Shown in pieces: positions 3,694 through 37,603 of a stretch of 56,655 bases of DNA. The notes beneath the pieces are model-generated. The model ran no database searches. It saw only the letters and a list, made by a program, of their open reading frames with translations, and had not been told where the DNA came from. Every line of letters begins with the position of its first letter. Position 1 is the first letter of the stretch. The position numbers and the translations under genes were made by a program. The stretch comes from Akkermansia muciniphila (GTDB taxonomy: Bacteria; Verrucomicrobiota; Verrucomicrobiia; Verrucomicrobiales; Akkermansiaceae). The stretch lies in assembly GCA_945873305.1 (NCBI GenBank), contig CAMCCX010000005.1:1-56655 (forward strand). The letters run 5' to 3'.

Positions 3694-3798
3694 ATGAAAC
3701 TCGCCTTTCTCGCCGCTGCCGCCGCGCTCTTCGCCGCCTCCTGCTGCCCAAGCACTCCCGCTCCCAGCCAGCCGGCATACGTGGCTCCGTCCAAGTGA
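3694..3798 (+). CDS. Small lipoprotein, 34 residues, SCC type
   Basis: Short frame from ATG to TGA. It has Lys at position 2, a hydrophobic Ala/Leu/Phe h-region and a lipobox ending LFAASC, followed at once by a second Cys, then a Pro/Ser-rich tail ending VAPSK. If signal peptidase II cuts before the first Cys, the mature part is only about 17 residues. No known family is recognised. It is followed 62 nt later by a similar protein with the same AASCC junction and an SK C-terminus, which argues that both are real. No Shine-Dalgarno precedes the ATG. Confidence 0.6.
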   Translation: MKLAFLAAAAALFAASCCPSTPAPSQPAYVAPSK

Positions 3799-3860: not shown

Positions 3861-4019
3861 ATGATCCGCATTCTCTCCACACTCGTCGCTTCGGTTTTCG
3901 CACTCTTGGCCGCATCCTGCTGCTGCACCGGTGAGCAAAAAGCACCCGGCCTGCGCGCGCTGCCCCAGTTCCAGGAAATCCAATCGGCTCCTGCTCCTGA
4001 AGTGCATTACTCCAAGTAA
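3861..4019 (+). CDS. Small lipoprotein, 52 residues, SCCC type
   Basis: The frame is open from an ATG at 3795, but MIRILSTLVASVFALLAAS at 3861 is a compact lipoprotein signal with a positive N-region, so this start is chosen. The lipobox LAASC is followed by two more cysteines (CCCTGEQK). The mature tail of about 33 residues is Pro/Ala-rich and ends HYSK. It looks like a paralogue of the preceding 34-residue lipoprotein. No catalytic or binding motif is visible other than the Cys run, which may hold metal or form disulphides (inference). A strong terminator follows at 4059. Confidence 0.65.
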   Translation: MIRILSTLVASVFALLAASCCCTGEQKAPGLRALPQFQEIQSAPAPEVHYSK

Positions 4020-32840: not shown

Positions 32841-34142
32841 TCAGAGCAGCATCAGGGCGGGTTGTTCGATGAGCTTCTTGACCTCGGATAGAAACTGGGC
32901 GGCGACCGCGCCGTCAACGACGCGGTGATCGCAGGAGAGTCCCAGATTCATGCGGAGGCCGGGGACGATCTGGCCGTTTTTGACGACGGGTTTCTCGATG
33001 GCGGCACCGACGGACAGGATGGCGGCTTGCGGTGGGTTGACGATCGCGTCGAAGGATTCGATGCCCCATGCGCCGAGATTGGAAACGGTGATGGTGCCGC
33101 CGTCGAATTCATCCGGCTTGAGTTTCTTGTCCTTGGCGCGGACGGCGAAGTCTTTGACGGCGCGGGAAATGGCGAGAAGTGATTTGGATTCCGCCTGTTT
33201 GATGACTGGTGTGACGAGGCCGTCCTCGACCGCGATGGCGACGGACAGGCCGACGTGTTTGTATTTCACGATGTGATCTCCGGCGAACGAAGCGTTGACG
33301 GCGGGCACGGTTTCGGTGGCGTTGATGACGGCTTTGAGAATGAAGTCATTGACGGAATATTTGTTGCCGTGGGTTTTCTCGGCCTGTGCATTCACTTGCG
33401 CTCGGAGCGCCATGAGCGGCGCGGCGTCCACCTCGACGTGCAGATAGAAATGAGGGATGGTGGTCTTGGAAGTAAGGAGTCGCGAAGCGATGATCTTGCG
33501 CATCGAGCTGAGCTGGATGATTTCGTCTTCTTCCTTGGCTTTGGGAACAATGGCCTGGGATGCGGGAGCCGCGACTGGTGCGGGTGCGGCGGCTTTGGAT
33601 TTGATAGACGCTGAGAGCGCTGCCGCGGCGGACGCTTCGGATGAGGGAAGAGCGGCGGATTTAACAGGTGAAGCGGCGGCGGCCTGGATGTCTTCTTTGA
33701 CGATGCGACCGGCCGGGCCTGAGCCGGTGATGGTGGAAAGGTTTACTCCAAGCTCGGCAGCGACTTTTCGAGCAAGTGGCGATGCCTTGACGCGGTCTCC
33801 GCTAGCGGGAAGCGACGGGGCGTGAGCGGCAGGCGTCGATGCGGGAATCGCGACGGCGGGAGTGGCAAGGGCAGCTTGCGGAGCCGGTGTGTGGATGGCT
33901 TCAGAATCTCCGTTGAGGACGGCGAGAATTCCACCGATCGGAGCTTTTTCTCCCTCTTGGATCAGGATCTCAGTGATGACGCCGTCATCGAAAGCCTCCA
34001 TTTCCATGGTCGCTTTGTCGGTTTCGATTTCAGCGAGGATGTCACCAATTTCGACGGAGTCGCCGACTTGTTTGTGCCACTTGATGAGGGTGCCCTCGGT
34101 CATGGTATCCGAGAGTTTTGGCATTTCGATGTTCACAGACAT
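32841..34142 (-). CDS. pdhC: Pyruvate dehydrogenase E2, dihydrolipoamide acetyltransferase
   Basis: 433 residues. One lipoyl domain at 1-80 with lipoyl lysine Lys43 in ETDKATMEME, an Ala/Pro-rich linker, an E3/E1-binding domain around 115-150 (ASPLARKVAAELGVNL), a second linker, then the acyltransferase domain ending with LGLSCDHRVVDGAVAAQFL, whose HRxxDG is catalytic. It transfers acetyl from lipoate to CoA in the PDH complex. A single lipoyl domain is typical of Gram-positive and alphaproteobacterial type complexes. It is separated from pdhB by the two lipoprotein genes and a terminator. No E3 gene lies in the window. Confidence 0.94.
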   Translation of the reverse strand: MSVNIEMPKLSDTMTEGTLIKWHKQVGDSVEIGDILAEIETDKATMEMEAFDDGVITEILIQEGEKAPIGGILAVLNGDSEAIHTPAPQAALATPAVAIPASTPAAHAPSLPASGDRVKASPLARKVAAELGVNLSTITGSGPAGRIVKEDIQAAAASPVKSAALPSSEASAAAALSASIKSKAAAPAPVAAPASQAIVPKAKEEDEIIQLSSMRKIIASRLLTSKTTIPHFYLHVEVDAAPLMALRAQVNAQAEKTHGNKYSVNDFILKAVINATETVPAVNASFAGDHIVKYKHVGLSVAIAVEDGLVTPVIKQAESKSLLAISRAVKDFAVRAKDKKLKPDEFDGGTITVSNLGAWGIESFDAIVNPPQAAILSVGAAIEKPVVKNGQIVPGLRMNLGLSCDHRVVDGAVAAQFLSEVKKLIEQPALMLL

Positions 34143-34204
34143 GATATTGATAGGTGGTGGAGTCGGGGTGAGAATGAGAAAATGTCAGGGCATTTCCAGT
34201 CTTT

Positions 34205-34250
34205 TTACGGAAACAAAAAGCGCGGGGAGTTTTGAACTCCTCCGCGCTTT
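34205..34250 (-). terminator. Strong terminator after the small lipoprotein gene
   Basis: AAAGCGCGG pairs with CCGCGCTTT and, past a one-base bulge, GGAGTT pairs with AACTCC around a short loop. Read leftward the stem is followed by CTTTTTGTTT. It separates the lipoprotein unit from pdhC. Confidence 0.8.
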
Positions 34251-34272
34251 GAAAGACAATCAAATTACCTGG

Positions 34273-34701
34273 TCAAGGTTTGACGGCGACCGGGCCGAGT
34301 GGCAGCGGCTTCATGGTTGGAATGAGGCCGAGGTTCGGGCTGCCGACGGAGCCTTGGACGCTGGCCATCCGCATGGTGGATTCCGAAGTGGTGCCGCAGC
34401 AGTCCTTTTTCGGGCAGTAGAAACGGGCGCATTGTCCGCAAGGGATACGGACTTTTTTGGTGACGGTTTTATAACGGGGAACACGTTCCTCGATGGTTTG
34501 GACTGATCCGCCAAGTCCGCTTTTCGCGTCACCGGGTGTCACTACTTGTTTGGTGACGATGTCGTAGCCGCAGGTTTTCACTTGGCGGGTCTCAGTGCGA
34601 TAGCCGGCGTTTTGGCTGCTGCCAGTGCCGAACATCGAGCAGCAGGAGGAGAAGCCGAGGGAAACGGCGGCGAGGGAAACGAGTAGGAGCAGGTTTTTCA
34701 T
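34273..34701 (-). CDS. Cys-rich lipoprotein, SCC type, 142 residues
   Basis: Start chosen at MKNLLLLVSLAAVSLGFSSC, a lipoprotein signal; the frame is open 16 codons more. The lipidated Cys is followed by a second Cys (SCCSMFG). The mature domain has paired basic/Val motifs (RQVKTCGYDIVTKQVV, RYKTVTKKVRIPCGQC) and a Cys cluster PCGQCARFYCPKKDCCG that could bind metal. It ends in a Pro-rich tail. No family recognised. It follows a 24-residue SCCC lipoprotein by 32 nt and ends at its own terminator, so it is a unit placed between pdhB and pdhC. Confidence 0.7.
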   Translation of the reverse strand: MKNLLLLVSLAAVSLGFSSCCSMFGTGSSQNAGYRTETRQVKTCGYDIVTKQVVTPGDAKSGLGGSVQTIEERVPRYKTVTKKVRIPCGQCARFYCPKKDCCGTTSESTMRMASVQGSVGSPNLGLIPTMKPLPLGPVAVKP

Positions 34702-34733
34702 GATGACTGATGGATTGAGGAAATTAGGGAAAT

Positions 34734-34808
34734 TTACAGACAGCAGCACGAGGTCAGGCTGAGAGCCAGGACGGCGGCGGTGATGATGATGGTAAAACGG
34801 GTGAACAT
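34734..34808 (-). CDS. 24-residue micro-lipoprotein ending in CCCL
   Basis: ATG to TAA frame of 24 codons. Arg at position 4, then a hydrophobic stretch (FTIIITAAVLALSLTS) leading to the lipobox SLTSC. Everything after the first Cys is only CCL, so the mature lipopeptide would be four residues, CCCL. It has a candidate promoter 7 nt upstream and is followed by the 142-residue SCC lipoprotein. The perfect signal-lipobox layout and the same SCC feature as three other small proteins in the window support it despite its size. A control (leader) peptide role is an alternative. Confidence 0.5.
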   Translation of the reverse strand: MFTRFTIIITAAVLALSLTSCCCL

Positions 34809-34815
34809 ATCGGTT

Positions 34816-34843
34816 ATGCTAGAATTGAGAGTGGGCTTGGCAA
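34816..34843 (-). promoter_or_regulatory. Sigma-70-like promoter before micro-lipoprotein
   Basis: On the minus strand TTGCCA (34843-34838), 16-nt spacer, TAGCAT (34821-34816), then 7 nt to the ATG. It has the same -10 hexamer as the promoter before the plsC-like gene. The transcript would be leaderless or nearly so. Confidence 0.4.
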
Positions 34844-34894
34844 TCAAAAAGACCGGCAGGAGCTGATGATGTTTTGAATTTGGATTTCCAGGGA

Positions 34895-35881
34895 TCAGGC
34901 CAAGGTCAGGACTTTGTCCACGATTCTTTGAGGATTCGGAAGTTGTTCATGCTCAATGTGTGGCGAATAAATCGCTGGGGCATCGATCGAGCAGACCCGC
35001 TTGATGGGAGCGTCGAGATAATCGAAGGCGTGTTCCTGGATTAGCATGGCGACCATTGCCGAAACTCCGCCGAAGGGTTTGGACTCATCAACAAGAACGA
35101 CGCGGTTGGTTTTCATCACCGATTTGAGAATTGCGTCCTGGTCGAGCGGGCGGATCGAGCGGAGATCGAGGACCTCGGCGTTGATGCCGTGTTCGCTTTG
35201 GAGGATTTCGGCGGCGGCCAGGGAGTGAATGACAGAACGACCGTGGGCGATGAGTGAGACATCGGAGCCCTCGCGTTTGATGTCGGCGAGACCGAGCGGG
35301 ATGACGAAATCTCCATCAGCCGGATCAGGAACCTCGCCGGTGGTTCCGTAGAGCAGGGTGTTTTCCATGACATAGACCGGATCGTTGTCACGGATGGCGG
35401 CTTTGATCAGGCCCTTGACGTCGGCCGGGGTGGCGGGGGCGCAGACTTTCAATCCTGGGAATGCGGCGAACAATCCTTCCGGGATGTGCGAATGGGTTGC
35501 GCCGACACCGGTGCCGCCGTTGGCAGGACCGCGGACGACGATCGGGCAATTGCACAAGCCGCCGGACATGTAGCGGACGCAGGCGGCGTTGCTGACGAGT
35601 TGGTCGAAAGCGACGGAATGGAAGGACCAGAACATGAGTTCCATCACCGGCCGAACGCCGAGCATCGAGGCGCCGATGCCCATGCCGATGAAGCCTGCTT
35701 CGGAGATCGGGGTATCGACGACGCGCTTGTCGCCCCATTTTTTCCAAAGGCCTTCGGTGACTTTGTAGGCGCCGTTGTATTGGGCGACTTCCTCGCCCAT
35801 CAGGACGACGTTGGGATCGCGGGCGAGTTCCTCATCGAGGCCTTCACGGAGGGCTTCACGGTAGGTGAGAATGCGGGACAT
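34895..35881 (-). CDS. pdhB: Pyruvate dehydrogenase E1 component, beta subunit
   Basis: 328 residues, typical. Family motifs: REALREGLDEELARDPNVVLMGEEVAQYNGAY is the start (residues 8-40), RVVDTPISEAGFIGMGIGAS, GTGVGATHSHIPEGLFAAFPGLKV, and SLIAHGRSV with the C-terminal transketolase half ending in VCSIDAPAIYSPHIE. With the alpha subunit it decarboxylates pyruvate using thiamine diphosphate. It starts 47 nt after pdhA on the same strand. Downstream comes the micro-lipoprotein unit and only then pdhC. Confidence 0.96.
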   Translation of the reverse strand: MSRILTYREALREGLDEELARDPNVVLMGEEVAQYNGAYKVTEGLWKKWGDKRVVDTPISEAGFIGMGIGASMLGVRPVMELMFWSFHSVAFDQLVSNAACVRYMSGGLCNCPIVVRGPANGGTGVGATHSHIPEGLFAAFPGLKVCAPATPADVKGLIKAAIRDNDPVYVMENTLLYGTTGEVPDPADGDFVIPLGLADIKREGSDVSLIAHGRSVIHSLAAAEILQSEHGINAEVLDLRSIRPLDQDAILKSVMKTNRVVLVDESKPFGGVSAMVAMLIQEHAFDYLDAPIKRVCSIDAPAIYSPHIEHEQLPNPQRIVDKVLTLA

Positions 35882-35928: not shown

Positions 35929-37005
35929 TCAGTCATTGAAGAAGTGGCGGCCGATTTGGGACGCCGGCGTGTTGTGGTCGGTTTCCCAGTAAACATCGGT
36001 GCTGATGTCCGCGATGGTCGGGGCGGGGGATTCTTCGGCGAATTTCACGGAAGCGGCGGCCTCGTCGGCAGCGGCTTTGTTGATGGCGGTGGCGCTTTCC
36101 TCGGTCAAAACGCCTTCTTCGATGAGACGGCGGCGGAAGACGGCGATGGGATCGTGGTTCTGTTTGTAGTTCTCGATCTCCTCGGGCGTCCGATATTTCT
36201 TGTGGTTCGCGTCCGCGATGCTGTGGCCGTAGTAGCGGTAGGTGTCGATTTCCAGGACCGTCGGCTTGTGCTGTTTGCGGGCGCGTTCCATGGCGATGTG
36301 GGTTTTGGCGCGGACTTCGTAGATATCCGATCCGTCGATCACGTCCCATTCGATGGCGTAGGCTTCGGCACGCTGGGCGAGGCAGCCGCTGTAGGCGGAG
36401 GAGCGTTTTTGGGAGGTTCCCATCGAGTAGCCGTTGTTTTCGATGACGTAAACGACGGGGATTCCGAACAGGGCGGCGATGTTCAGCGATTCATGGAAAG
36501 CGCCTTGGTTGACCGCGCCGTCGCCGAGGTAGCAAAGGCAGCAGCCCTCCTTGCCGAGGTATTTCAGGCCGTAGGCGAGGCCGAGGCCGAGGGGAGTCTG
36601 GCCGGCGACAATTCCGTGGCCGCCCCAGAAATTCTTGTCCGGAGCGAAGAAATGCATCGAACCGCCTTTGCCTTTCGAGCAGCCGGTTTGCTTGCCGTAC
36701 ATCTCCGCCATGCATTCGTTCATGCCCATGCCGACGGCGAGCGCGTGACCGTGGTCGCGGTAGGCGGTGATGAAATGGTCGTCCGCCCCACCGAGGGAAA
36801 TCGTCCCGACGGCGACTGCTTCCTGGCCGATGTAGAGATGGAGGAAACCGCCGATTTTTCCGGCTTGGTAGTATTTCAGGCCTGCCTGTTCGAATCTGCG
36901 GATCCGAACCATTTGCGAGAAGAGCTCGATTTTCCGCTCGGTCGTGAGCGCTTGGTTGATGGGCGAATTGGCGAAATCGAGTTTGGTGGAACTGGCGCTG
37001 GTCAT
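35929..37005 (-). CDS. pdhA: Pyruvate dehydrogenase E1 component, alpha subunit
   Basis: 358 residues from MTSASSTKLDFAN; the frame continues 34 codons upstream into the neighbour gene and is not family-like. The thiamine diphosphate motif GDGAVNQGAFHESLNIAALF (GDGxx to NN) is complete, followed by VVYVIENNGYSMGTS. Other landmarks: YYQAGKIGGFLHLYIGQEAV, TAYRDHGHALAVG and TYRYYGHSIADANHKKYRTPEE, the phosphorylation-loop region in eukaryotic homologues. It heads the pdhA-pdhB pair and follows the small membrane protein gene by 34 nt. Confidence 0.95.
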   Translation of the reverse strand: MTSASSTKLDFANSPINQALTTERKIELFSQMVRIRRFEQAGLKYYQAGKIGGFLHLYIGQEAVAVGTISLGGADDHFITAYRDHGHALAVGMGMNECMAEMYGKQTGCSKGKGGSMHFFAPDKNFWGGHGIVAGQTPLGLGLAYGLKYLGKEGCCLCYLGDGAVNQGAFHESLNIAALFGIPVVYVIENNGYSMGTSQKRSSAYSGCLAQRAEAYAIEWDVIDGSDIYEVRAKTHIAMERARKQHKPTVLEIDTYRYYGHSIADANHKKYRTPEEIENYKQNHDPIAVFRRRLIEEGVLTEESATAINKAAADEAAASVKFAEESPAPTIADISTDVYWETDHNTPASQIGRHFFND

Positions 37006-37039
37006 GGTGGCGTTGAGAAATGGGAAACAGGCTGATCGC

Positions 37040-37603
37040 TTACTTGGTGGCAAGAACGTCGTGCACCGGAAGGGAGAATTTTGGAAGCCGGACTTGGGCG
37101 ATTGCAAAGATGGCGGTGAAAAGCACGTTAGCCGCAGTCAGATTCCGAAGGAAAACCCAGGAGGGGATTTGGCTGCCGAGCGGGCCGGCCCAGACGGATT
37201 GGTAGAGGCCTTCGAGGTTCTTGGCGTAGAGCGGATCGGTGATCCAAGCGGCACCACAAGTGATGAGGTGGAAGGTGAGGGCTGAGGCGGTGGAACCGAG
37301 AAGGAGGGTGGGTAGGTTGCGGTTGGCGAGGGCCTTGCCGATGAAGAAAATGGCGAGCAGGGCGAGGCTGGTGCTCACGAAATCCAGCGGGTTGGCGGTG
37401 TGGCCGACGCCGAGGGGGAAAGTCACCGCCCAGACGCCGAGCGGAATGGCAAATCCGCGCCAGCCGGGGGCGAGCAGGGCACCGCAGAAAAACAACGCGG
37501 CGAGAGGTTGAAAATTCGGTTGGGACTCGGGAAGCACGCTTCCCAATACACGAAACGCGATGATGAGTCCGACGATGAAGCAGAGTGGGAGATAGCGGTG
37601 CAT
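37040..37603 (-). CDS. Multi-pass membrane protein (DUF6580-like)
   Basis: 187 residues from MHRYLPLCFIVGLIIAF. Five or six hydrophobic helices, with conserved-looking NFQPLAALFFCGALL and the C-terminal TAANVLFTAIFAIAQVRL. The FxPxxAxxLFxGA pattern near the N-terminus is what I associate with DUF6580 membrane proteins, possibly related to ECF-type substrate-binding components (from memory). The extended frame to 37696 is unlike. It lies 34 nt upstream of pdhA on the same strand and may be co-transcribed; a vitamin (thiamine?) link to PDH is only a guess from position. Confidence 0.65.
   Translation of the reverse strand: MHRYLPLCFIVGLIIAFRVLGSVLPESQPNFQPLAALFFCGALLAPGWRGFAIPLGVWAVTFPLGVGHTANPLDFVSTSLALLAIFFIGKALANRNLPTLLLGSTASALTFHLITCGAAWITDPLYAKNLEGLYQSVWAGPLGSQIPSWVFLRNLTAANVLFTAIFAIAQVRLPKFSLPVHDVLATK

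Follow-up and report, generated by a model that had tools for sequence, protein, structure and literature searches.

A 24-residue open reading frame in Akkermansia muciniphila, made up of a lipoprotein signal and lipobox with almost nothing behind them, is by the conservation of its sequence a protein-coding gene and not a chance frame. We lean, with modest confidence, towards the lipidated Cys-Cys-Cys-hydrophobic peptide that is predicted to remain after processing as the functional product of this gene. What would be new here is a lipoprotein predicted to keep only four or five residues once mature (six in one locus).

The window, which is the whole stretch of 56,655 nucleotides that was analysed, carries the frame on its minus strand at 34808–34734, with the ATG at 34808 and the stop codon ending at 34734. 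Read from the sequence, the peptide is MFTRFTIIITAAVLALSLTSCCCL; its lipobox is L-T-S-C, and the lipobox cysteine is followed by CCL and nothing more. The first-pass annotation had described a bare lipoprotein signal and lipobox with only CCL after it, furnished with promoter-like boxes of its own and standing ahead of a larger SCC lipoprotein, and each of these points was borne out: the boxes read TTGCCA-16-TAGCAT, and the SCC lipoprotein begins with an ATG at 34701, 32 nt past the small frame. The features of the locus are as follows.

34895–35881, minus strand: upstream neighbour, an E1-beta-type subunit with transketolase domains (domain scan)
34816–34843, minus strand: promoter, with −35 TTGCCA (34843–34838), a 16-nt spacer and −10 TAGCAT (34821–34816) (consensus match)
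34734–34808, minus strand: small lipoprotein gene, 24 codons plus stop, predicted mature product Cys-Cys-Cys-Leu
34273–34701, minus strand: SCC lipoprotein gene, 142 aa, Cys-rich, its product predicted to begin with CC once mature; it comes second in the unit
34217–34250, minus strand: hairpin with a U-run behind it, which probably terminates the two-gene unit (z −4.27 for the fold of 34185–34275)
32841–34142, minus strand: downstream neighbour, an E2 acyltransferase with a lipoyl domain (domain scan)

The lipobox region of the SCC lipoprotein reads SSCCSMFG. An E1 component is encoded at 35929–37107, near the dehydrogenase E1-beta-type and E2 genes that flank the small gene. The terminator scan listed nothing at the 34217–34250 hairpin, despite its fold score. 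For both the small protein and the SCC lipoprotein, Pfam gave no match and NCBIfam no match near cut-off, and curated family models cope poorly with a protein of 24 residues. The AlphaFold model of the SCC lipoprotein is poor (mean pLDDT 60), and an Rfam search over 34000–35100 returned nothing credible, its single match lying far under its gathering score. Elsewhere in the window, on the plus strand at 3694–3798 and 3861–4019, two further small lipoproteins of 34 aa and 52 aa stand in tandem, with a frame recognised by eye as leuC-like downstream of them; the 34-aa protein ends in AASCCPSTPAPSQPAYVAPSK, and the 52-aa protein has AASCCCTGEQKA after its signal. A similar tandem is found at locus L096, and locus L095 holds a 58-aa SCCC protein.

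The bare pattern of CCC, a hydrophobic residue and a stop is not enriched in the organism’s own genome, where it has 12 matches against 12 for the reversed pattern, and the case for a gene therefore rests on conservation. The frames read for four of these 12 matches are the small frame itself, L040, L041 and L048. A search of the same pattern at the level of the family was discarded as noise, with matches in 252 of 260 genomes.

The small frame was read in 67 of the 73 genomes of its own genus (g1) and in 16 of the 18 genomes of a second Akkermansiaceae genus (g22); the SCC lipoprotein was likewise matched in 67 of 73 and 16 of 18. In all 81 g1 and g22 loci able to show both, the small frame lies 10–95 nt upstream of the SCC gene. 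These 81 are the 83 SCC-matched genomes minus G159 and G029, and have the SCC gene and its upstream DNA on one contig; the G159 contig starts 25 nt upstream of the SCC gene, and in G029 the locus is split over two contigs, with the small frame at the end of one. G031, which has no SCC match, carries the small frame close to the end of a contig, with the opening codons of an SCC-like gene after it. The first-pass annotation had named conservation of the frame and of its Cys run in relatives as a check, and both are kept in every one of the 81 loci with the same gene order; loss of the frame was not found among them. Profile searches returned neither an SCC match nor a small frame in G008, G162, G180, G189 and G191 (g1) or in G153 and G155 (g22), and if these seven genomes are true losses, the pair is dispensable. 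The SCC protein matches in two pieces in G019 and G029, and the G019 version is 105 aa long, with its middle part missing.

The surroundings of the pair are conserved to different degrees. The E2 gene lies downstream in 49 of the 49 loci with at least 900 nt there, and the E1-beta gene lies upstream in 61 of 83. Twenty-two of the 83 loci, including L083, L085 and L098, have no E1-beta gene upstream despite at least 350 nt being present, so that the upstream neighbour of the small frame is not constant. When 288 genomes taken from the order, with the family among them, were searched with a profile, matches at E ≤0.003 came up in 61 genomes; beyond g1, g22, g29 and g31, the matches listed lay in open frames of at least 53 aa, G373 and G396 (53 aa) included. 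Among the known carriers, at least five (G030, G166, G170, G174 and G190) escaped this search, so that it is no measure of absence elsewhere.

Both the tail and the signal of the peptide are constrained. Counts of tails, codons and promoters come from 82 tabulated loci, with G169 left out, while the presence and gap counts include it. The tails are CCCLF in 47 loci (48 once G169 is added), CCCM in 20, CCCL in 8, CCCMF in 5, CCCF in 1 and CCCLFS in 1. Ser at −1, Cys at +1 and the CCC run are present in 82 of 82 loci; position +4 is L, M or F and position +5 is F or a stop, with one locus adding S. Across the loci, the invariant Ser-Cys-Cys-Cys is written with both Cys codons and all four TCN codons. 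Substitutions fall at codon positions 1, 2 and 3 in proportions of 28, 16 and 56% (53 pairs, which are not independent). On a tree of the partner proteins, built from 79 of the 82 rows with few columns and many unresolved forks, the count of changes is at least 10 for the +4 residue and at least nine for the final F, and CCC shows none.

No acidic residue occurs among the 1521 signal residues. Read in its two alternative frames, this DNA gives 0.7% and 5.4% acidic residues; since one of these frames is nearly free of them too, the measure is weak when taken alone. Hydrophobic residues make up 68% of the signal and 39% and 36% of the alternative frames. A Lys, Arg or His stands within the first six residues in 78 of 82 loci in the initial table; of the remaining four, three acquire one if translation begins at an upstream ATG, and G177 has none. 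The Cys codons are mostly TGC (221 of 246), and five further window genes share this preference (25 of 26), so that the choice of Cys codon says nothing. A background for the +2 residue of lipoproteins was unusable as biased, since 24 of the 32 proteins have Cys at +2 and many belong to the SCC family.

The promoter is conserved along with the frame. Seven nucleotides separate the −10 TAGCAT from the ATG of the small gene, and in all but one of the 82 loci (81) the −35 TTG precedes the ATG by 34–41 nt; at the set distance from this TTG, the −10 box has its T, A and T in 69, 63 and 68 of 81 loci. Transcription generally starts about 7 nt past a −10 box, which together with the conserved geometry would leave a leader of roughly 0–7 nt. 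We infer that the RNA of the small gene starts at or near the A of ATG 34808 and is leaderless or nearly so. A Shine-Dalgarno-like motif is found within 20 nt of the frame’s own ATG in 7 of 82 loci. Akkermansia muciniphila is reported to have 10% leaderless starts (PMC4782308), so that a leaderless small gene is not odd for the family. At one locus (L126, in G149), a repeated 8-base unit in the small-gene promoter lengthens the spacer between the −35 and −10 boxes.

The source genome has matches to Lsp, Lgt (2 matches) and Lnt. We propose a minimal preprolipoprotein gene, translated from RNA that would start at or near the start codon, whose 20-residue hydrophobic signal would target the product to the membrane. 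There, Lgt would put diacylglycerol on the first Cys, Lsp would cut off the signal and Lnt could add a third acyl chain, leaving a lipidated Cys-Cys-Cys-Leu or, in relatives, CCC followed by L, M or F and often by a further F. Going by its sequence, the frame is presumably co-transcribed with the SCC gene, translated and processed, and the lipopeptide would work at the envelope in trans, either jointly with its SCC lipoprotein neighbour or next to it. As to mechanism, we favour a role for its two free thiols, which would sit by the lipid head: they might offer the membrane surface a thiol or a ligand for soft metals, or they might form a disulfide with the CC head of the SCC protein. A role of this kind is suggested by the composition of the peptide and is less likely than not. 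The first-pass annotation had proposed a lipidated tetrapeptide, perhaps a membrane-active lipopeptide or a metal or redox-active membrane tag, and, as another option, a leader peptide. Conservation lends good support to the processing that the former implies, through the signal features, the invariant SCCC, the restricted tail and the presence of Lgt, Lsp and Lnt. The leader-peptide option has lost ground owing to the constraint on the signal, the lack of RNA structure and a second, unrelated locus.

This second locus lies in a third genus, g29, where a 23-aa peptide of like design, ending in SCCC plus L, W or F, is found in 13 of 27 genomes (all 13 were read). Its gene lies 125–767 nt upstream of glnB, with the start of a nitroreductase gene recognised between them in five of the 13, and a GntR/FCD regulator precedes it in four of the six loci displayed (families were scanned in one locus). 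Five loci from g29 (L221, L223, L226, L227 and L228) hold a conserved lipoprotein of 38–39 aa, MKKLITTLALGFIVLGLASCCSTETALSVIPEGPVVIEK and variants. The g29 peptide has no acidic residue in 299, and changes at its three codon positions number 102, 58 and 190 (24 pairs). The genes after it encode a nitroreductase or are glnB, and none encodes a lipoprotein; at the glnB loci of 24 other genomes (19 loci), no small CCC frame is present in any. That one design has been kept at two unrelated loci, each with next genes of its own, speaks for a product that acts independently. It is a serious prospect, if one that stops somewhat short of probable, that these peptides form a class of gene-encoded, minimal thiol lipopeptides of the form Cys-Cys-Cys-hydrophobic(-Phe), made from leaderless genes by the ordinary lipoprotein pathway at two unrelated Akkermansiaceae loci, and serving in trans by offering the membrane surface a thiol or a ligand for metals, or by pairing through a disulfide with larger lipoproteins.

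The SCC lipoprotein itself is more widely distributed, being matched in 13 of the 16 genera of the family, with about 100–120 residues beyond its start. At the twelve loci from other genera, the SCC gene is not preceded by a small CCC lipoprotein frame. Ten of these twelve SCC genes lie behind the same promoter geometry, with a TTG 38–41 nt from the ATG (one also at 44), and the E1-beta gene is upstream in eight of the twelve. Among the six g31 SCC proteins read, the start is CCCLF in four, CCCLL in one and CCCMF in one. The simplest history would be that, in the line leading to g1 and g22, a copy of the SCC gene start arose at its promoter and was trimmed down to a signal and CCC(L/M)F. Since the A1 profile picks up the SCC lipoprotein signal as well, likeness between the signals is weak evidence of descent.

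The alternative that survives best, though we regard it as unlikely, is that the small gene is a leaderless polycysteine regulatory frame, in which a shortage of Cys slows ribosomes at the three Cys codons and alters translation of the next gene, the peptide itself being inert. In mycobacteria, short leaderless frames with contiguous Cys codons are reported to control the genes that follow them (Canestrari et al., 2020, as described in PMC9031893 and PMC9094748). As these sources describe them, such frames resemble the small frame in being short and leaderless, with contiguous Cys codons and another gene downstream, and differ from it in the constrained lipoprotein signal, the hydrophobic tail residue, the lack of a fold signal and the non-cysteine next genes that it shows. 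The promoter geometry, through the RNA start deduced from it, agrees with a (near-)leaderless start; the three contiguous Cys codons stand at the very end of the frame, with the next gene 10–95 nt off; and invariant Cys codons by the stop, together with a leaderless start, would be expected of an attenuator too. Against this reading, the signal is itself strongly constrained, being free of acidic residues, basic at its N-terminus and 68% hydrophobic, and the residue past CCC is limited to bulky hydrophobics. Stalling in an attenuator of the polycysteine family could act through an RNA structure or through the arrangement of the initiation site. Shuffled sequences fold as well as the frame and the next-gene start do (mean z 0.08 and 0.17, in 80 of the 82 tabulated loci), a Shine-Dalgarno-like motif lies within 20 nt of the SCC ATG in 0 of 79, and the gaps of 10–95 nt fall in all three relative frames. 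We thus found no RNA structure or initiation-site arrangement for stalling, a result that covers structural forms of coupling only. The next genes, moreover, encode an SCC lipoprotein or a nitroreductase or are glnB, and none is a gene of cysteine metabolism.

We consider it improbable that the frame acts in cis as a secretion leader, drawing ribosomes to the membrane or monitoring lipoprotein export and so setting expression of the SCC gene. Two lipoprotein genes in one apparent unit would suit such a leader, as would the match between its promoter geometry and that before the lone SCC gene in most of the other-genus loci. The g29 design, however, precedes genes for proteins without lipoprotein signals, targeting needs no invariant CCC and hydrophobic tail, and the gap varies in length, with relative frames 0, 1 and 2 in 25, 33 and 23 loci. 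In enterococcal pheromones, the released signal peptide is the product, and a bare signal peptide would suffice if the same held here and the CCC stub were a leftover. The hydrophobic part does differ among species, but what is invariant is the stub with the preceding Ser and not the rest of the signal, and the source organism, like its phylum, has an outer membrane; there is very little chance that the released signal peptide is the product. Scarcely credible and disfavoured is a decaying, functionless partial duplicate of the SCC lipoprotein N-terminus. In its favour, most mature SCC proteins start with CCSMF, and four of the six read from g31 with CCCLF, which is close to CCC(L/M)F, and the small frame occupies the place where the SCC gene of other genera begins. 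Against it, the frame is kept across two genera with a purifying codon pattern and an invariant tail, and it is intact at every one of the 81 loci that have both the SCC gene and its upstream DNA.

The small gene has much in common with lipoproteins of the Lgt/Lsp/Lnt pathway, sharing the N-terminal basic residues, the hydrophobic core, the lipobox ending in Ser-Cys and the presence of the enzymes in the genome. It departs from known lipoproteins in having only Cys-Cys and one or two hydrophobic residues past the lipobox Cys; known small lipoproteins, such as entericidin and Lpp, keep tens of residues in their mature form. The partner SCC lipoprotein, for which no named family was found, resembles the small frame in its signal and CCSMF start and differs in its roughly 100–120 extra residues. 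DAG-RiPPs, as described in a preprint, are gene-encoded peptides made into lipopeptides by the lipoprotein pathway, with an enzyme-modified C-terminal motif and a maturation enzyme (PMC12636315). The small frame shares with them, as they are described there, the route from gene-encoded peptide to lipopeptide, whereas its three scanned neighbours in the window include no maturation enzymes and its tail is of four or five residues. An abundant 139-aa lipoprotein has been described in Methylacidiphilum (PMC10260701) and is something different. Literature searches among open-licence papers found no such peptide; they covered small lipoproteins and the shortest ones, signal peptides that stand alone, leaderless frames in Verrucomicrobia, the genera Luteolibacter and Haloferula, and lipoprotein pheromones.

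A product of four to five residues is below the size at which genes usually get annotated. If the lipidated Cys-Cys-Cys-hydrophobic peptide exists, the lipoprotein pathway would yield a peptide of four to five residues as a functional end product, and, if this is true, the lower size limit of functional bacterial lipoproteins would become testable in cultured species.
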